Origin: Bacteroidia bacterium
GTDB taxonomy: Bacteria; Bacteroidota; Bacteroidia; Flavobacteriales; Schleiferiaceae
Length of the DNA: 64,000 nucleotides
Assembly (NCBI GenBank): GCA_030424545.1
Contig: JAUHWL010000003.1
Span: 1-64,000, forward strand
Reading direction: 5' to 3'
Part shown: positions 48,543-57,890 of the stretch, in pieces
Numbering within the stretch: the stretch's first letter is position 1
Layout of the letters: the number at the start of each line of letters is the position of its first letter
Position numbers and translations under genes: made by a program
The notes under the pieces: model-generated
Told to the model about the DNA's origin: nothing
Seen by the model: only the letters and a program-made list of their open reading frames with translations
Databases searched by the model: none

Positions 48543-49970
48543 TTACTTCAATTTTAGCAATACCACATTTTCTATGTGGTGGGTTTGCGGAAACATATCT
48601 ACAGCACGAGATTTTACCAATGTGTATTTTTCGCCCAAGGCTTCTAAATCGCGGGCTTGCGTTGCGGGGTTACAACTTACGTACACAATTTTTGGCGCGT
48701 TTAGCGATAGTATTTTTTGCACCACTTTGGCATGCATCCCGTCTCTTGGTGGGTCGGTTACAATTACATCAGGTTTGCCGTGCTTGGCAATAAACGCATC
48801 GTTAAGCTCGTCTTTCATATCGCCAGCCACAAAAAGTGCGTTTTCTATGCCGTTAAGTTTTGCGTTTTCTCGGGCATCATGCACAGCCTCGGGTACCGAT
48901 TCTATACCAATAACTTTTGTTGCTTTTTGTGCCATAAATAAGGCAATGGTTCCAGTGCCTGTGTATAAATCGTACACGTTCTCGCCTTCTTTTAAATCGG
49001 CAAAATCTAATGTGGTTTTGTAAAGCTCAAAGGCTTGTTTAGAGTTGGTTTGGTAAAAAGATTTTGGTCCAATTCTAAAATTTAGCGGTTTGTTGCCTGC
49101 GTAATAAGCGGGCATTTCTTCTAGAATAAAAGATTTCTCAGAAAACGGAATAATATCTAAATCGTAAATAGAATCGTTTTGTTTCTCGTTAATGGCGTAC
49201 TGAAGTGACGTGATTTCTGGAAAATCCGTTGCCATTTGGTTGATTATGAGGTTAATCCATTCTTTATGGTCTTCGCCAAACTGAAAAACAACCATAATCT
49301 CTCCGGTGCTCGAAGTTCTAACCATCATGGTACGTAAAAAGCCCTGTTTTTCGCGGATGTTGTAAAAGGTCATTTCGTTTTCAAAAGCAATTTCGCGTAC
49401 TCGGTTGCGAATGGCATTGCTTGGGTTTTCTTGCAAATGACATTGGTTTACATCAAGCACCTTGTCCCAAAAACCAGGTATGTGAAAACCTACACCATTG
49501 CGATTTTTAAACTCTTTACCGCTTTCTAGCTGTTCTTGCGTAAGCCAATAATTATTGGTGAAAGAAAATTCTAATTTATTGCGATAAAAATACTGTTCGG
49601 TACAACCTAAAATGGGCAGAGCTTCTTCGGGTTCTAAATGAGCTATTTTTTTGATGTTGCTCAACACATAATTTTCCTTGTATTTAAGCTGAGCATCATA
49701 GCTTAAATTTTGCCATTTGCATCCTCCGCAAACTCCAAAATGATCGCAAACGGGTTTTACCCTATCGGGCGATAAAGAATGAAAATGTACAGCTTTACCC
49801 TCGGCAAAGTTTTTTCTTTTCTTCTGTATTTGAACATCAACAACATCTCCGGGAACTGCGCCCGTAACAAAAAAAACTGCAGAATCTTTTTTTCCTACAG
49901 CTTTTCCCTTTGCACCAAGATCTACAATGGTAACCTTAGTTTCTATTTTGTTTTTATTTCTTCTGCCCAT
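48543..49970 (-). CDS. rlmD: 23S rRNA (uracil-C5)-methyltransferase RlmD family
   Basis: The protein has 475 residues. A TRAM domain lies at about 8-65. The [4Fe-4S] cysteines are C75, C81, C84 (CDHFGVCGGC) and C177 (VNQCHLQ). The Rossmann methyltransferase domain has DLYTGTGTIALF, TDPPRDGMH, and the catalytic Cys in YVSCNPATQARD. The family methylates U747 or U1939 in 23S rRNA or U54 in tRNA, so the exact base is open. A TAnnTTTG box ends 4 nt before the ATG. Confidence 0.94.
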   Translation of the reverse strand: MGRRNKNKIETKVTIVDLGAKGKAVGKKDSAVFFVTGAVPGDVVDVQIQKKRKNFAEGKAVHFHSLSPDRVKPVCDHFGVCGGCKWQNLSYDAQLKYKENYVLSNIKKIAHLEPEEALPILGCTEQYFYRNKLEFSFTNNYWLTQEQLESGKEFKNRNGVGFHIPGFWDKVLDVNQCHLQENPSNAIRNRVREIAFENEMTFYNIREKQGFLRTMMVRTSSTGEIMVVFQFGEDHKEWINLIINQMATDFPEITSLQYAINEKQNDSIYDLDIIPFSEKSFILEEMPAYYAGNKPLNFRIGPKSFYQTNSKQAFELYKTTLDFADLKEGENVYDLYTGTGTIALFMAQKATKVIGIESVPEAVHDARENAKLNGIENALFVAGDMKDELNDAFIAKHGKPDVIVTDPPRDGMHAKVVQKILSLNAPKIVYVSCNPATQARDLEALGEKYTLVKSRAVDMFPQTHHIENVVLLKLK

Positions 49971-50020: not shown

Positions 50021-52066
50021 TTATTCTATAATTAATTTTTTAGTGATTACTTGTTGAGGAATGGCCACATGTACCATGTAAACCCCTTTGGCAAGTTGTG
50101 ATGTATTTAACGAAATCAAGTTGTTACCAGCTTTAGTTTGGGCCGTTTGGGTTGATGTAATTTGCCCGGTAATATTAATGATTTGAATTGTTGCTTCTGT
50201 AGATAAATGGGTTTGCAACAAGAGTGTAGCTTGGTCCTTGGCAGGGTTTGGATACACTTGTGCATGAAAACCTTCCAAAGGCATTTCATTCAAACCAATA
50301 GTAAATGCGGCTTCAGAGGCTTGATATACTTCTTTGGTAACTTCATCTTGCAACCAAGCTGATACACCTAAATCGTTAAAGTCTTCTATGGTATGTCTGG
50401 TACTAAGGTTTACTGGTTGAGTTCCATTGGGCGGCAAAATGTATGTTCCTTTAAATGTAAAACACAAATTTTCTATATGTGCTTGACCAGAAACCAAACT
50501 GCTTATTGAAGTGCCGTTGCCATTGGGCATCATTTTTTTCATCACATGATAAAACTCTAAATCTCCGCTAGATTTAGTGTTTGCAAGCGATTTTTTCTCG
50601 TAAATAGCTACATACAGTTTTAGGTTGGGATTGCTAATATCAACCAGCGGATTTAGTTCTATTTCTGTACAAACTTCTTGGCCATTCACATAAAACTTAG
50701 ACGTCATGTTTAACAAGGCAATTTTTTCCCGTGCAGTATTTAGCGTGTTGGCCGCAAGCATATAATTGTATTTCGCCCAATCTTCACCATTTACTTGCAA
50801 GTTTGGCACGGTAGAAACACCATAAAATTGCCTTCTTGCACCACCTTCGTTGGTATAATATGGGTCGCCAGTACCGGGCCAATTCATAGGGTATTTAATG
50901 TGTACATAAGGCAACGATTGTTGGTCTAAAACATTTTTTAGTTGGTCGTTTAAATTTTTGCTTTGTGCACTTGTGCTGCTTGTAAAAGATTCTAACAAAG
51001 GCACACGTGGCGCAGATTGTTGCAATACAATAATTGATTTTTTTGCTGTGTCATTTAAATTGTTCTGATCAGTGTTTCCGTTTAAGTTGGTTGCCCAAGC
51101 TTTTAAAACTGTTGTAGAGGCGTTTGGCGACCATGATTGAGGGTGAACAACCGTATCGATTTGCCATGGCAATAAATTTAAATTGGTGAGATTTCCTGTT
51201 ACAATACCAGTAGCACTCGTATAGTTTAAATCAAGTGATTGTATTGTATCACTCCCTCTATTCTCTAAAATTACTTTAATGTCAAAAGGTCCTTTCGGGG
51301 CAGCAATGATATCATCTAGCAATATAGCCGTTGTGGTAATGTCTCTGTTGGGTAAGTTTCCTGGGTGAAAAGTATATACAGTATTGTCTGTTCTAGTTGG
51401 GCTGTTGCTAGATGCTGAACTTATTTGAGGAGACCCAGCAACGTTAAAAGCCGTGGTATTATTTATTTGAATGCCTAATGTTAAAGCTTGAGTAAGGTTG
51501 GTACTGGTGCGTTGATCTACTATATAAATGCTGTTGGTAGATTCTTCTAGCACAATGCTCCAATATGTGTAATGGCTATTAAAAATAGCAGGCATAGAGT
51601 AGTCATTAAAAGTAATCCAATGTTGTCTGTTTGGCGCGGTTCCAAAGGTTTTGGTTACAATTTTGTCATTGCTCCCTTTGCCAGAAATACCCCAAACACA
51701 AATAGAATTATTGGGGATTGAATTTTTAGGTAAAAGGTAGTTTATGCTTGTAGGAGCTGATGTAGCCCCTGCCAAAGTAGTAAATGTAAGTACGCCTGAA
51801 GTTGAGACGATGTACTGTGTTTCTGCAACTCCGTTAAACAGAAAATTAAAAGGAATATTTTGTACAGGTGTCCAGTTGGGTGTGCTCTGATTTCCAGCAT
51901 GTATTACTGTCCAGCCAGAGGGTAAGCCTCCATTAACAGGATATTCTAAATCTTCTAGATTTATGTTATTTGGGTTTCCGGTTTGTACGGGTGTGCTATA
52001 ATATTGTGCATTGGCCAAATTGATAACAGCAACCAAAGCTGTGGTAAAAAGTAAATGTGCTTTCAT
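50021..52066 (-). CDS. T9SS-exported Omp28-like paralogue with the CxxC lost
   Basis: The protein has 681 residues from the ATG at 52066. The seven upstream codons in frame are not signal-like. A signal peptide ends at LANAQ. Residues about 25-215 form an N-terminal beta domain (FGTAPNRQHWITF, YWSIVLEESTNSIYI) shared with the 676-residue paralogue. A CARDB-like stretch follows. The Omp28/thioredoxin-like domain starts at LLESFTSSTSAQSKN, where the two paralogues have TFTSSTCGPC or TFTSSTCAPC. Both redox cysteines are thus replaced, and the fold remains (WPGTGDPYYTNEGGARR). A T9SS tail ends the protein. It probably lacks thiol chemistry and may bind a ligand or partner instead. Confidence 0.88.
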   Translation of the reverse strand: MKAHLLFTTALVAVINLANAQYYSTPVQTGNPNNINLEDLEYPVNGGLPSGWTVIHAGNQSTPNWTPVQNIPFNFLFNGVAETQYIVSTSGVLTFTTLAGATSAPTSINYLLPKNSIPNNSICVWGISGKGSNDKIVTKTFGTAPNRQHWITFNDYSMPAIFNSHYTYWSIVLEESTNSIYIVDQRTSTNLTQALTLGIQINNTTAFNVAGSPQISSASSNSPTRTDNTVYTFHPGNLPNRDITTTAILLDDIIAAPKGPFDIKVILENRGSDTIQSLDLNYTSATGIVTGNLTNLNLLPWQIDTVVHPQSWSPNASTTVLKAWATNLNGNTDQNNLNDTAKKSIIVLQQSAPRVPLLESFTSSTSAQSKNLNDQLKNVLDQQSLPYVHIKYPMNWPGTGDPYYTNEGGARRQFYGVSTVPNLQVNGEDWAKYNYMLAANTLNTAREKIALLNMTSKFYVNGQEVCTEIELNPLVDISNPNLKLYVAIYEKKSLANTKSSGDLEFYHVMKKMMPNGNGTSISSLVSGQAHIENLCFTFKGTYILPPNGTQPVNLSTRHTIEDFNDLGVSAWLQDEVTKEVYQASEAAFTIGLNEMPLEGFHAQVYPNPAKDQATLLLQTHLSTEATIQIINITGQITSTQTAQTKAGNNLISLNTSQLAKGVYMVHVAIPQQVITKKLIIE

Positions 52067-52423
52067 CTCAAGAATTGTTTCGTTCAACCCTTGAAACTAC
52101 CTCACAATCAAGTTAAAGCGCGTTTTGTATAAAATAGAAATAACCAATGCATTGTTGAAAACCCTGTTATTTGTTAATAACTGCGTAAAACCTTGTGAAC
52201 TAAAACTTTGTACATTATTTAGGTGCGGACGTTGGTTTTTCATGCTGCACCCTTGTAAGAGCAATCTTGCAAATACGGTTGTTAAACAAGTGTTTAAGGT
52301 ATAGCGCTTTTTCGGAATCTTTATTTTCGACCTCTTTTTTTGAGAATAAATGTGAGCAAACCGACAATGTTGGCCAAAAAAAATCCCAGAATAAACTGGG
52401 ATTTTTTAATACTCGGATTGAGT
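52067..52423. other. Largest gene-poor gap after rnpB (357 bp)
   Basis: This gap holds the terminator of the 351-residue paralogue (52377-52408) and the unseen promoter of the 681-residue one. A 48-codon frame on the minus strand (52097-52243, ATG to TAG) is open but has no recognised relative. TGTTAATAAC at 52171-52180 is DnaA-box-like but isolated. I see no RNA gene. Confidence 0.3.
52377..52408 (-). terminator. Terminator of the 351-residue Omp28-like gene
   Basis: A 12-bp stem (52378-52389 with 52396-52407, loop AATAAA) with A and T tracts on the flanks lies 15 nt after the stop on the minus strand. Confidence 0.9.
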
Positions 52424-53479
52424 TTATTGAACCGTTAATTTTTTAATCTGTAGGTTTTTCTCTATTTCAACTTTAACAAAATAAATGCCTGCGGCAAAAT
52501 TCATGGTTTCAAGTTTAATTTTATTTATTCCTTTTTCTACATGTTTTGTTTCGGCATACATTGTTTGCCCTAATGCGTTTACTACAGATATTTTGGCAAC
52601 CGAATTTTTTGGAGATTCTATGGCAAGTGTAGAATAGTCTGATGCCGGGTTAGGATAAACTTCTAATTTGGTTTGCTCTAAATCACGGTCATCAACACTT
52701 AGCACATATACGGCATTGGCAGCTTGGTACACTTCTTTTGTGCTTCTTCTTTGCAACCATACGGCAACAGAAATGTCATTAAAATCTTCTACGCTGTGTT
52801 CTGTTGCATGATTTATAGGGTCGCTAGCATTGCCAGGCAAACGATAGCTTCCGTTAAACGTATAGCAGTATGAGTAATTTACTTTTTGTCCTTTTACAAG
52901 TGGTGGCATTGTTTTGCCAATCCAATCTGGGGCAAGTTTTTTCATGACATCAAAAAACTCTGTTTCTCCATTGGTCTTTACATTGGCTGTCGTTCTGTTT
53001 TCTTTTATGCCTATAAACAGTTTTAAGTTGGTAAAGTTGATGTCTTCTAGCGGATTTAATTCTACATCCACACAAACTGTTTGCCCTGAAATGCTGTAAA
53101 CGGCATCTATTTCTAACACAGAAGGTACATTTTTATATTGGTTGTAAATAGCTTGCGTTAGATTGTTACCATTGTTGTTCCAACCGCCATCTATAGCCAC
53201 ATTAGGCACAGAATTTACATTGTAGTAATTTCTTCTTACGCCTCCTTCTGTAGTGTAATATGGGTCACCTGTTCCTGGCCAACTCATTTGGTATTTTATA
53301 GAAACATGTCCGCCTGGATTATTTGCAAAAAGTGTTTCCATAGTAGAATTGGCAGGTGTACAAGGGCCACACGTAGAGCTCGTAAATGTTTCAAAAAGGG
53401 GCAAGCGGGTGGTAGTGGTTTGCGCCAAGGCTATAAACCCAACCAATATTGTAGAAAGTAAAAATGTAATTTTTTTCAT
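52424..53479 (-). CDS. T9SS-exported Omp28/thioredoxin-like protein with CGPC
   Basis: The protein has 351 residues. A signal peptide ends at IALAQ (about 20). The Omp28-like thioredoxin domain begins at once, with TFTSSTCGPC and its redox pair C37 and C40, then the WPGTGDPYYTTEGG and RRNYYNVNSVPNVAIDGG segments. The ending is a T9SS tail (LEVYPNPASDYSTL, VNALGQTM, and a basic end). It lacks the N-terminal domain of its larger neighbours. The CGPC pair suggests an extracellular disulfide reductase or oxidase role (inference). It sits in tandem with the two larger paralogues, each with its own terminator. Confidence 0.9.
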   Translation of the reverse strand: MKKITFLLSTILVGFIALAQTTTTRLPLFETFTSSTCGPCTPANSTMETLFANNPGGHVSIKYQMSWPGTGDPYYTTEGGVRRNYYNVNSVPNVAIDGGWNNNGNNLTQAIYNQYKNVPSVLEIDAVYSISGQTVCVDVELNPLEDINFTNLKLFIGIKENRTTANVKTNGETEFFDVMKKLAPDWIGKTMPPLVKGQKVNYSYCYTFNGSYRLPGNASDPINHATEHSVEDFNDISVAVWLQRRSTKEVYQAANAVYVLSVDDRDLEQTKLEVYPNPASDYSTLAIESPKNSVAKISVVNALGQTMYAETKHVEKGINKIKLETMNFAAGIYFVKVEIEKNLQIKKLTVQ

Positions 53480-53501
53480 AATATGTTATTTAAATATAGA
53501 G

Positions 53502-53509
53502 CAAAAATA
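53502..53509 (-). promoter_or_regulatory. Promoter -7 box of the 351-residue Omp28-like gene
   Basis: On the minus strand the sequence is TATTTTTG, a consensus match ending 22 nt before the ATG at 53479. Confidence 0.5.
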
Positions 53510-53534
53510 GAGGAATTGTACCGATGTAAAAGAA

Positions 53535-53566
53535 AAAAGCCCAAAGGATTAATCCTTTGGGCTTTT
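53535..53566 (-). terminator. Terminator of the 676-residue Omp28-like gene
   Basis: A perfect 16-bp palindrome (53535-53550 with 53551-53566) closes on a small ATTAAT loop and has A and T tracts at the base. It lies 24 nt after the stop on the minus strand. Confidence 0.9.
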
Positions 53567-53589
53567 AAATGATTAAACGAGAATATCGC

Positions 53590-55620
53590 TTATTGAACTG
53601 TTAATTTAACGGTTTGAGTGCTACCATCAATATCAACAATTACAAAATACATTCCGGCTGTTAAACCATCTGTAGTAAGGTTTACTTTGTTGTTTCCAGA
53701 AACTAAAGATTCTGAAACATTCATTACTGTTTGACCTAAAGCATTAACAACGCTAATGTTTGCAACGGCATTTTTAGTCATATCAATATTTACAGATGTA
53801 AAGTCTTTAGCAGGGTTAGGATAAACCAACAAACCAAAAGGTTGTGTGTTATAATCATCAATGCTTAACACTTGTGCAGCTTCTGCAGCTTGATAAACTT
53901 GCTTAGTACCTGCACTTTGTAACCATACAGCCACTGCTAAATCGCTAAATTCTTCTACAGAATGCTCGGTAGCATGGTTAATAGGGTCAGATGCATTGTT
54001 CGGTAATCTAAAGTTTCCGTTAAAAGTATAGCTAAACGAATATTTTACCTGATTGCCACTAACCAAACCTGAAATATTAGTTCCATTTTCATTCGGCACC
54101 ATTTTTTTCATCACATTATGAAACTCAGTTTCGCCATTTGTTTTTATATTTTGAGTAGTTAATTTTTCTTTGATGGCTACATGTAATGTTAAATCACTAG
54201 CGCTAATGTTAGCCGTAGGATTAATCATAACATCAACATAAACTGTTTGACCGCTAATTGAGTAAAGCGCTTCCATTTCTACTGTAGTAGACACTTTTTT
54301 ATAGCTTGTATAGATTGCTTGAGTCAAGCTGTTTCCATTATTATTCCAACCACCATCGATGGCAACATTAGGTACAGAGTTAACACTATAATAGGTTCTT
54401 CTTGCATTTCCTTCGGTTGTGTAATATGGGTCACCCGTTCCCGGCCAGCTCATTTGATATTTTAATGAAACGTGGTTAGGATTGTCACCAAAAATAGCTT
54501 CCATGTTTGTATTGGCCGGAGTACATGGTGCGCAGGTAGAGCTTGTAAATGTTTCGTATAAGCTAAATCTTTCTATTCCTTGAATGATTTCAACAGATTT
54601 AGACACTTTATCATTTACAGTATTTAAATCGGCATTTCCGTTTAAGTTGCTTAACCAAACTTCAACAGTATGAACACCTACACTACCATTACTCCATTTT
54701 GTAGGGCTAGAAAGTTCAACTTTAGCATTAGAAGCAATATTTAATCCTGTTAAGTTTGAAGTTACTGTGGCGCCACCATCAATTTTATAATTGATATCTG
54801 CAGATGTAATGGTTGCCGCACCTTGATTATAAAATTCTCCTTTTATTGTGAAAGGTGCTTTAGAAGTATATAGCAAAGAATTGGTTGTTACTTTTTCACC
54901 TTTCATATCAAACTGTGGCTGTGGGCCAGGTAAGAATGCGTAGTAAAAGTTGTCTGAAGAAGTTTCACTTGCTCCAGAAAGACATCCAACATTTGGAGAT
55001 CCTGCAACAGAATAGGCTAAAGTAGAACTAATTTGAACTCCTAAAGTAGCAGATAATGTACCGTTAGCATTACGTTGGTCAACAATATAAATGGCATTAG
55101 AAGATTCTTCTAAAACAATACTCCAATATGTCCATGAGCTAGCAGCTCCGGGCATTGTATAAGAAGTAAAGAAAATCCAGTGCTGACGATTTGGAGAAGT
55201 TCCAAATGTTTTAACAGTAATTTGGTCGCTAGCACCTGTTCCAGTAATACCCCATACCATGATTGAATTGTCTGGAATAGACGCACTAGGAATTACAGCT
55301 GGAGTTTGTGGAATTGTTGCAGAAGACGCAACATCAAAAGTTAATACACCATTGCTATTTACTTTAAACTGAGTAACAGGAATTCCATTAAAATTAAAAG
55401 CAAAAGGAATAGATTGTGTAGTTGTCCAAGTTCCTGTAGCTGGTTGACTACCAGGTAAAATACTTGTCCAAGATGGATCTAATCCACTTCCAACAGGATA
55501 TTCTACATCTGTATTTAATCCACCAGGATTACCAGGTGCAGGAGGTAAATAGTAATAGTTTTGCGCGCTCGCTACAAAACCAAATACTAGAAATAAAATT
55601 AACGTAATGTTTTTCATCAT
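53590..55620 (-). CDS. T9SS-exported Omp28-like protein with CAPC and an extra N-terminal domain
   Basis: The protein has 676 residues. A signal peptide ends at VASAQ (about 20). The N-terminal beta domain (20-215; FGTSPNRQHWIFF, YWSIVLEESSNAIYI) is shared with the 681-residue paralogue. It is followed by a CARDB-like stretch and the Omp28/thioredoxin-like domain with TFTSSTCAPC and WPGTGDPYYTTEG. A T9SS tail ends the protein. The segment after the CxxC is close to identical to the 351-residue paralogue, which points to a recent tandem duplication or gene conversion (inference). Confidence 0.9.
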   Translation of the reverse strand: MMKNITLILFLVFGFVASAQNYYYLPPAPGNPGGLNTDVEYPVGSGLDPSWTSILPGSQPATGTWTTTQSIPFAFNFNGIPVTQFKVNSNGVLTFDVASSATIPQTPAVIPSASIPDNSIMVWGITGTGASDQITVKTFGTSPNRQHWIFFTSYTMPGAASSWTYWSIVLEESSNAIYIVDQRNANGTLSATLGVQISSTLAYSVAGSPNVGCLSGASETSSDNFYYAFLPGPQPQFDMKGEKVTTNSLLYTSKAPFTIKGEFYNQGAATITSADINYKIDGGATVTSNLTGLNIASNAKVELSSPTKWSNGSVGVHTVEVWLSNLNGNADLNTVNDKVSKSVEIIQGIERFSLYETFTSSTCAPCTPANTNMEAIFGDNPNHVSLKYQMSWPGTGDPYYTTEGNARRTYYSVNSVPNVAIDGGWNNNGNSLTQAIYTSYKKVSTTVEMEALYSISGQTVYVDVMINPTANISASDLTLHVAIKEKLTTQNIKTNGETEFHNVMKKMVPNENGTNISGLVSGNQVKYSFSYTFNGNFRLPNNASDPINHATEHSVEEFSDLAVAVWLQSAGTKQVYQAAEAAQVLSIDDYNTQPFGLLVYPNPAKDFTSVNIDMTKNAVANISVVNALGQTVMNVSESLVSGNNKVNLTTDGLTAGMYFVIVDIDGSTQTVKLTVQ

Positions 55621-55835
55621 TAAATTTTTTGAGTTTAGGGCGTGAATATACTATTTAGCCCGTTTAATCTATTGTTTTTATTGTCAAAAAATTGATTTTT
55701 TCATGTTAAAGTTTTATTGTTTAGTATTATGTCATATAAATTTTTAAATGCAGTAAGTTTTATCGCTCATTAAAATGAAATGGTTCTTACCCAAAAGCTA
55801 AATATTTCTATTCAGTTTTGGCATAAAGAGGATTG

Positions 55836-55843
55836 TATATTTG
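55836..55843 (+). promoter_or_regulatory. Promoter -7 box of rocD
   Basis: TATATTTG matches TAnnTTTG exactly and ends 23 nt before the rocD ATG. A TTTG at 55817-55820 lies a little closer than the usual -33 distance. Confidence 0.6.
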
Positions 55844-55866
55844 CCACCCAAATAAAAAAACAGAAC

Positions 55867-57111
55867 ATGAGTACAGTTGCAGAAAAAAATAGTAATACAG
55901 CCCATTACATAGCCCTAGAAGACAAATATGGGGCGCATAATTATCACCCGCTTCCTGTTGTTTTAGAAAAAGGAAAAGGCGTTCATGTTTGGGATGTGGA
56001 TGGCAAACAATACTTTGATTTTCTTTCTGCATATTCTGCTGTAAACCAAGGCCATTGTCACCCAAAAATTATTGGTGCTTTGCAAGAACAAGCCAATACA
56101 TTAACCTTAACTTCTAGAGCGTTTTATAGCGCGCAACTTGGTCCGTTTGAAGAGTACATTGCAAATTACTTTGGCTTTGATAAAGTTTTGCCCATGAATT
56201 CTGGAGCCGAAGCAGTAGAAACGGCCATTAAGATCTGTAGAAAATGGGGATATGAGAAAAAGGGAATTGAAGAGAACAGAGGTAAAATAATAGTTTGTGA
56301 AAATAATTTTCACGGACGCACAACTACCATTATTTCTTTTAGCAACGATGAGGTTGCCAGAAAAAACTTTGGCCCTTATACAGATGGTTTTATCCGCATA
56401 CCTTATAATGATTTAGATGCCTTAGCACATGTCTTAAAAGATAATGATGTTGCCGGATTTTTAGTAGAACCCATACAAGGCGAAGCAGGCGTTTTTGTAC
56501 CAGATGAAGGATTCTTGTCGGGTGCACAAAAACTTTGTAACCAAGCCAACGTACTTTTTATTGCAGATGAAGTGCAAACCGGTGTTGCCCGCACAGGCAA
56601 GTTGCTAGCCGTAGATTATGAAAATGTAAAACCAGATGTTCTTATTCTAGGTAAAGCGCTCTCGGGAGGTGTATATCCCGTATCGGCAGTGTTGGCCAAC
56701 AATGGCATAATGGAGGTGATTAAGCCTGGTCAACATGGCTCTACTTTTGGCGGTAACCCATTGGCAGCAAAAGTAGCTATGGCTGCACTAGATGTAATTA
56801 AAGAGGAAAACCTTGCTGAAAACGCCTACAGATTAGGCGAAATTTTTAGAAGTAAAATTCAAGAATTGGTAGATAGCAGCGATTTATTGTTGCAAGTGCG
56901 CGGCAAAGGATTGCTAAACGCATTGTTAATTAATGATACCGAAGACAGTTCTACCGCTTGGGATATTTGTGTTGCGCTTAAAAACAACGGATTGTTGGCC
57001 AAGCCAACACATGGTAATATTATCAGGTTTGCGCCACCATTGGTGATTACAGAACAAGAACTTTTAGAATGCATTGCTATTATCAAAAAAACAATAGAGT
57101 CGTTTAAATAA
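55867..57111 (+). CDS. rocD: Ornithine aminotransferase
   Basis: This PLP enzyme transfers the delta-amino group of ornithine to 2-oxoglutarate, linking arginine and proline metabolism. It has 414 residues from the ATG at 55867. The open frame 29 codons longer crosses the promoter and is not family-like. Motifs are [14 protein letters not shown] near residue 20, [11 protein letters not shown] near 110, [14 protein letters not shown] near 148, and the PLP Lys263 in [17 protein letters not shown] terminator follows within 25 nt. Confidence 0.95.
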
Positions 57112-57284: not shown

Positions 57285-57890
57285 ATGAATGATATTATTT
57301 TAAACGCACTGAAATACGCATTGAGTTATGAGGATTATAGAGCGCTGCACCAAGAGCAGGTGCGCGATAAATTAACCAGTGGCACCAATCAAATAGATTC
57401 GTTAGTTGAGTTTACAAAACTGAATAACTCTAGAACTAGACGCTGGGAAAAACGCTACACCCCAGAAACAAATTTTGCCAACCTTAATCCAAGCGAAAAA
57501 GAAATTTGGTTGATTATTTCTGAAACGTGGTGCGGAGATGCGGCACAAAATATTCCTGTAATACAGAAAATTGCAGATCAAATGCCGCATGTAAAAACAC
57601 GTTACGTTTTTAGAGACGAAAACTTAGAGTTGATGGATAAATTCTTAACCAATGGAGGAAGAAGTATCCCGAAATTAGTTAGAATTATAGAGGAAAGTTT
57701 AGAAGTATTAGGTACTTGGGGACCTCGCCCAGCGGCATCGGGCTTTTTGTTAGAAAAGTATAAAAATGATGAGGCGTATACCAAAGAGATGTATAGCGAA
57801 GATTTAGCAAAATGGTACGTAGATGATCACGGCAAGAGTATTGAAGATGAATTTGCAAAACTCTTAGATCATCAAACAGTGGCTTCTTAG
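57285..57890 (+). CDS. Thioredoxin-like protein with a WCGD motif
   Basis: The protein has 201 residues. A helical N-terminal extension (1-60) is followed by a thioredoxin fold (about 68-170). The active site reads ETWCGDAAQNIP: the second Cys of the usual WCxxC is absent, so only one cysteine remains. SIPKLV near 125 keeps the cis-Pro loop. This variant is common in Bacteroidota and Firmicutes and may form mixed disulfides or bind thiols without full thioredoxin chemistry. No signal peptide is present, so it is cytoplasmic. Confidence 0.88.
   Translation: MNDIILNALKYALSYEDYRALHQEQVRDKLTSGTNQIDSLVEFTKLNNSRTRRWEKRYTPETNFANLNPSEKEIWLIISETWCGDAAQNIPVIQKIADQMPHVKTRYVFRDENLELMDKFLTNGGRSIPKLVRIIEESLEVLGTWGPRPAASGFLLEKYKNDEAYTKEMYSEDLAKWYVDDHGKSIEDEFAKLLDHQTVAS

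Follow-up and report, generated by a model that had tools for sequence, protein, structure and literature searches.

The 64,000-nucleotide stretch of DNA analysed (positions 1 to 64,000 of the forward strand of contig JAUHWL010000003.1, assembly GCA_030424545.1, from a Bacteroidia bacterium of the family Schleiferiaceae), referred to as the window, carries three minus-strand genes in tandem whose products combine a thioredoxin-like domain with a sorting tail of the type IX secretion system (T9SS). The genes were named A681, B351 and C676 by the length of the encoded proteins (681, 351 and 676 residues). A first-pass annotation of the sequence had described them as three exported Omp28-like paralogues, one of them without its redox cysteines; the tandem arrangement, the lengths and the coordinates were borne out, and all three proteins have a T9SS tail scoring above the cut-off. 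The features of these genes are the following:

53590 to 55620, minus strand: gene C676 (676 residues), with a signal peptide assigned by eye, an N-terminal module, a thioredoxin-fold domain, an Omp28/immunoglobulin-like (Ig-like) domain and a T9SS tail.
54523 to 54534, minus strand: CAPC redox site of C676, residues 363-366.
52424 to 53479, minus strand: gene B351 (351 residues), a short paralogue of the size of hemin-binding protein 35 (HBP35), without the N-terminal module.
53360 to 53371, minus strand: CGPC redox site of B351, residues 37-40.
53072 to 53074, minus strand: Cys136 of B351, matching Cys466 of A681.
52865 to 52867, minus strand: Cys205 of B351, matching Cys535 of A681.
50021 to 52066, minus strand: gene A681, a full-length paralogue without redox cysteines (681 residues from the ATG, 688 from an upstream TTG).
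50960 to 50971, minus strand: SAQS in place of CxxC in A681, residues 366-369.
50669 to 50671, minus strand: Cys466 of A681, first member of a cysteine pair specific to A681 and B351.
50462 to 50464, minus strand: Cys535 of A681, second of this pair.

The motifs of the redox site are as previously annotated: TCAPC in C676 (Cys363 and Cys366), TCGPC in B351 (Cys37 and Cys40) and TSAQS in A681 (Ser366 and Ser369, codons AGT GCA CAA AGC). Outside this site, A681 retains the cis-proline, 23 of the 29 invariant columns and 31 of the 41 columns with 95% or higher conservation among 38 CxxC relatives. The proposed restriction of an N-terminal domain to the two large proteins was also confirmed, since C676 and A681 (42.8% identity over 670 aligned positions) have in common a module of about 340 residues and B351 starts almost directly at the thioredoxin-like domain. 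Another contig of the same genome (C29) encodes a T9SS protein of 439 residues (L106:2540-3859), 51% identical to residues 1-347 of C676, that consists of the N-terminal module and the sorting tail with no thioredoxin part, the mirror image of B351, whose thioredoxin part comes without that module.

The sorting domain scored 58.6 bits in A681, 49.1 in B351 and 45.3 in C676 against a Pfam cut-off of 27 bits, and the cut-offs of both Por_Secre_tail and TIGR04183 were reached by the three proteins, whose signal peptides were assigned by eye only. Because SprA is encoded in the genome of the window (SprA_N, 1.5e-165) together with 140 sorting-tail matches, among which the tail of A681 ranks third by score, it is credible that the three predicted proteins are exported by the type IX system, and they are probably thioredoxin-like proteins of the cell surface.

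A profile of 215 positions, built from 41 CxxC domains of this genome and other genomes, matched the Omp28 domain 2r2c (E 7.3e-7), a DUF1223-type structure (2axo, 4.3e-6), the thioredoxin 1fo5 (2.1e-4) and, over profile positions 2-206, HBP35 of Porphyromonas gingivalis (5y1a, E 0.02), whose structure is PDB entry 5Y1A according to the accessible part of PMC11285876. In the alignment of a 15-row profile, the CxxC and a later proline line up with their counterparts in 1fo5. When single domains were considered at E values up to 0.1, Pfam Omp28 was found in 37 of the 41 and DUF1223 in 23. Structure models were used solely for whole-fold comparison, which covered the first 1000 chains of Foldseek. 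The best match of the C676 model (predicted local distance difference test score, pLDDT, 53.7) was HBP35, with Z 15.8 and a root mean square deviation (rmsd) of 8.2 for 272 residues over positions 346-676. For the A681 model (pLDDT 46.5), two matches came out on top: the Omp28 domain, at Z 11.5 over 106 residues, and HBP35, at Z 11.3 over 269 residues with an rmsd of 7.7. From the profile and fold comparisons taken together, the predicted C-terminal half resembles the HBP35 architecture, in which a thioredoxin domain carrying the redox site is followed by the Omp28/Ig-like domain and the T9SS tail. The term Omp28-like therefore holds as remote homology only, since all three proteins fall below the Pfam Omp28 cut-off (PF11551, 34.9 bits; A681 16.0, B351 26.8, C676 25.9), and the cysteines belong to the preceding thioredoxin domain. 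B351 is also far below the cut-off of 150 of the NCBIfam Omp28 lipoprotein (NF033782, 13.7 bits), for which no match was listed for A681 and C676.

A census of the redox site was carried out with loci from searches at family, order and phylum level and with fetched stretches, retaining domain rows with an E value of 1e-12 or better that start by profile position 5 and dropping those starting later or scoring worse. The searches scored few candidates per genome (up to 22 in the family, 3 in the order and 7 in the phylum), so the census is incomplete. By genome position, 177 domain rows corresponded to 154 genes in 111 genomes, of which 151 have CxxC, two SxxS (A681 and a gene of genome G024) and one SxxC, so that CxxC is the rule. 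The first-pass annotation had named two outcomes that would undo its enzyme/pseudoenzyme idea, a CxxC not conserved in the wider family and an SAQS that is a one-off or a sequencing error, and neither came true. Within the taxonomic family, 56 CxxC and two SxxS genes were read from 47 of 88 genomes, no row being read in the other 41; the genome of the window was the sole representative of its genus in the family search. Counting 151 distinct rows (a count since replaced) or 123 clusters of 25-mers, which merge genes of different genomes, gave the same two SxxS and one SxxC, the remainder being CxxC. The motifs of the 38 near CxxC relatives, several of which are close to each other, were CGPC (18), CAPC (12) and CPPC (8). 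Scans of named genomes confirmed no relative when A681 was used, with entries from the genome of the window or close to it possibly excluded, and found only the G024 contig when an alignment including the G024 protein was used. The SxxC variant (L238, genome G567) has the pattern of the Escherichia coli chaperedoxin CnoX, and three further copies in G567 are all CxxC.

Short and long members of the family (frames of 281-345 and 665-771 residues) adjoin in six genomes of the phylum search: G415 (L168/L244), G510 (L166/L223), G524 (L175), G614 (L171/L229), G639 (L202) and G714 (L172/L194). As all 12 sites of these pairs are CxxC, tandem pairing by itself does not bring cysteine loss.

Two flanking genes served as syntenic anchors, and a hairpin lies between C676 and B351:

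55780 to 57111, plus strand: ornithine aminotransferase (TIGR01885, 655.8 bits, cut-off 378.4), divergent neighbour and syntenic anchor.
48543 to 49970, minus strand: 23S rRNA methyltransferase RlmD (TIGR00479, 331.7 bits, cut-off 183.55), syntenic anchor on the other side.
53535 to 53566, minus strand: terminator-like hairpin 3' of C676 (14 pairs, T run).

The second SxxS gene belongs to a metagenome-assembled genome (MAG) of Schleiferiaceae, G024, from the same family (f1) as the window and a different genus. Its contig, identical to JAOARK010000063.1 (MAG: Schleiferiaceae bacterium isolate McBI.9), contains the start of the divergent ornithine aminotransferase gene, a gene for a 675-residue protein with a TSPTS site and one for a 696-residue T9SS protein with TGTWCGWCP, and its end has 81 identical bases in common with the end of contig C441, on which the next gene is rlmD. 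This overlap indicates the order ornithine aminotransferase, SxxS, WCGWC, RlmD, which would be the same locus as in the window, and each of the two SxxS genes lies in tandem with a gene that bears CxxC. The G024 WCGWC protein (L049:2525-4615) has the shared N-terminal module and matches HBP35 weakly at the redox site (E 0.55). In the genus g18, all 10 fetched loci holding both anchors have a single family gene between them, each CxxC, where the window has three. The RlmD tree groups G024, the window and g18 (86/84), the window being placed with g18 (97/95). The G024 SxxS frame is intact and keeps 23 of the 29 invariant columns and 33 of the 41 that are at least 95% conserved. The cysteine-free site is therefore not a one-off, one further SxxS gene having been found in another genus at the same locus, and a sequencing error was considered and rejected as very unlikely, as two separate codons differ in A681 and the second genus has the same state.

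A shared origin of the two SxxS genes is the favoured view, a single loss of the cysteines being judged reasonably probable. Both proteins are joined in the tree of the N-terminal module (98/87) and in the full-length tree (86/96), for which the site columns had been left out. The G024 protein is also the row with which A681 has the largest number of private residues in common, both in the N-terminal part (7, next 5) and in the C-terminal part (4, next 3), although from the G024 side the latter is a tie with another row. However, they stay apart in the domain tree, likewise computed with the site columns left out, dropping either protein sends the other elsewhere in leave-one-out trees, and the tree program warned of long branches meeting in the N-terminal and full-length trees, so that attraction is possible. 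Moreover, the Omp28/Ig-like domains of A681 and B351 contain a pair of cysteines absent from the G024 protein; both columns are Cys in 2 of 51 aligned rows, and one alone in none. Given the domain tree, the leave-one-out trees, the long branches and this private pair, the two SxxS genes could not be established as orthologues. The pair also conflicts with the sister relationship of B351 and C676, unless it was lost in C676 or copied between neighbours.

B351 and C676 are sisters in the domain tree (99/96), with 62% identity in protein and 69% in DNA. The first-pass annotation had considered their cores nearly identical and the result of recent duplication or conversion. The first statement was too strong, the best 40-position window among those tried reaching 85% identity in the thioredoxin core, and the second found no support in the codons. 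At identical residues, 91 of 196 codons were identical when 91.8 were expected by chance, with the same agreement in the core (29/60, expected 28.1) and outside it (62/136, expected 63.7), and recent gene conversion was rejected. Since synonymous codon agreement is no higher than codon usage predicts, the duplication is old, and constraint explains why the thioredoxin core has remained so similar.

The comparison with HBP35 provides a possible role for A681. HBP35 is likewise a T9SS cargo with a thioredoxin domain, an Ig-like fold and a C-terminal domain, it is close in size to B351 (344 and 351 residues) and it is the top fold match of C676. It differs in having the motif WCGYCPGG, closer to that of the G024 WCGWC neighbour, in lacking a long N-terminal module and in its weak sequence match. 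According to the available text of PMC2907840, HBP35 reduces insulin, and its C48S/C51S form loses this activity but retains hemin binding, which is also seen with a fragment starting at residue 135; A681 would be a natural protein in the state that this engineered form mimics. Both activities of HBP35, thioredoxin activity and the binding of hemin, were seen in vitro, and either could be what such surface proteins are retained for; a natural set of CxxC and cysteine-free versions in one genome would allow the two roles to be separated by deletion and by assay. The CxxC of HBP35-type surface thioredoxins was found in C676 and B351 and is replaced by SAQS in A681, which is for this reason not filed as an active member of the type.

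By analogy, A681 is considered, with a slight leaning in favour, a binding-only version of a surface thioredoxin located beside C676 and B351 as probable surface oxidoreductases. The locus would encode three HBP35-type proteins exported by the type IX system, each with a sorting tail behind a thioredoxin fold and an Omp28/Ig-like domain. C676 and B351 would probably act as thiol-disulfide oxidoreductases at the surface, and A681, because of the serines at both redox positions, would be expected to carry out no thiol-disulfide exchange there and might hold a ligand or client of the kind recognised by the family, next to copies able to act on it. A binding-only role is favoured because the C48S/C51S form of HBP35 still binds hemin and A681 keeps most of the conserved family columns; hemin itself is, by the same analogy, a lead as the ligand. 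Binding can be the function of a T9SS Omp28-related cargo, since a Paraprevotella protein annotated as Omp28-related and dependent on T9SS, and in these two respects comparable to the window proteins, recruits trypsin and has itself no protease activity, as stated in the accessible part of PMC9477747. HBP35-like redox and iron roles have also been proposed for a Muribaculaceae T9SS thioredoxin in the accessible part of a preprint (PMC13404670). The A681 type is a candidate pseudoenzyme of the bacterial surface, present at the same chromosomal position in two genera. At the level of listings and abstract openings, and without most subscription journals, the literature search turned up no publication describing a cysteine-free thioredoxin among T9SS cargo.

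Several observations weigh against this binding-only role. A681 is on a long branch and has lost 10 of the 41 strongly conserved columns, so it may bind a ligand other than that of the CxxC copies; in the G024 SxxS protein the cis-proline region is missing as well (INS in place of VPN), and binding may thus differ between the two SxxS proteins. Both structure models are of low confidence and derive from the same four-sequence set, which mixes CxxC and SxxS proteins, so they are not mutually independent; their HBP35 matches have a large rmsd, and unrelated rows come next at Z 10.9-11.5 for the C676 model and 9.4 for the A681 model. Finally, the hairpin after C676 and a second one after B351, recognised by eye only, suggest that the three genes are separately transcribed, and co-expression is not implied; the hairpin scan as a whole showed no excess (3 found, 4.6 in shuffles).

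The recurrence of an SxxS gene beside a CxxC gene in two genera could also mean that a cysteine-free pseudoenzyme has been kept since before these genera parted, each time next to a CxxC tandem relative with which it works at the cell surface as a client-binding or regulatory subunit, forming a type IX pseudo-oxidoreductase/oxidoreductase pair, which seems unlikely. That A681 is a decaying duplicate under relaxed constraint, in which the loss of the cysteines has no further meaning, is quite improbable: its end branch is long (0.79 to 1 changes per column), the lost columns point the same way and only two SxxS genes were found, but its 2-kb frame is intact with the third-best T9SS tail of the genome, the SxxS gene of another genus is intact too, and both proteins keep 23 of the 29 invariant columns. 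It is just as improbable that the family CxxC is a structural disulfide only, in which case its loss would not turn an enzyme into a non-enzyme; the literature search turned up no assay of the subfamily, but CGPC, CAPC or CPPC stand at the thioredoxin position with the proline following, conservation is near-universal (151/154), and the cysteines of HBP35 are required for its thioredoxin activity, according to the accessible part of PMC2907840. Least probable is thiol chemistry of A681 through its other cysteines (Cys123, Cys466 and Cys535), for which CnoX, with SxxC and a separate cysteine, is the precedent in the available part of PMC8129009, because Cys466 and Cys535 occur together or not at all among the 51 aligned rows, B351 being the only other protein to have them, and look like a structural disulfide, and the only cysteine of the G024 SxxS protein outside the signal peptide is in the N-terminal module. 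CnoX resembles A681 in having a thioredoxin domain that lacks a catalytic cysteine and has lost insulin reduction, in the same available part of that source, and differs in its SxxC site, in its fused tetratricopeptide (TPR) repeats and in working with GroEL, so it is an analogy only.

Past the ornithine aminotransferase gene, the window encodes a protein of 201 residues (57285-57890) with WCGD at the position of the thioredoxin WCxxC, for which an NCBIfam scan at 1e-10 gave no match. A relative of this protein is also present past the aminotransferase gene in the ten g18 loci.

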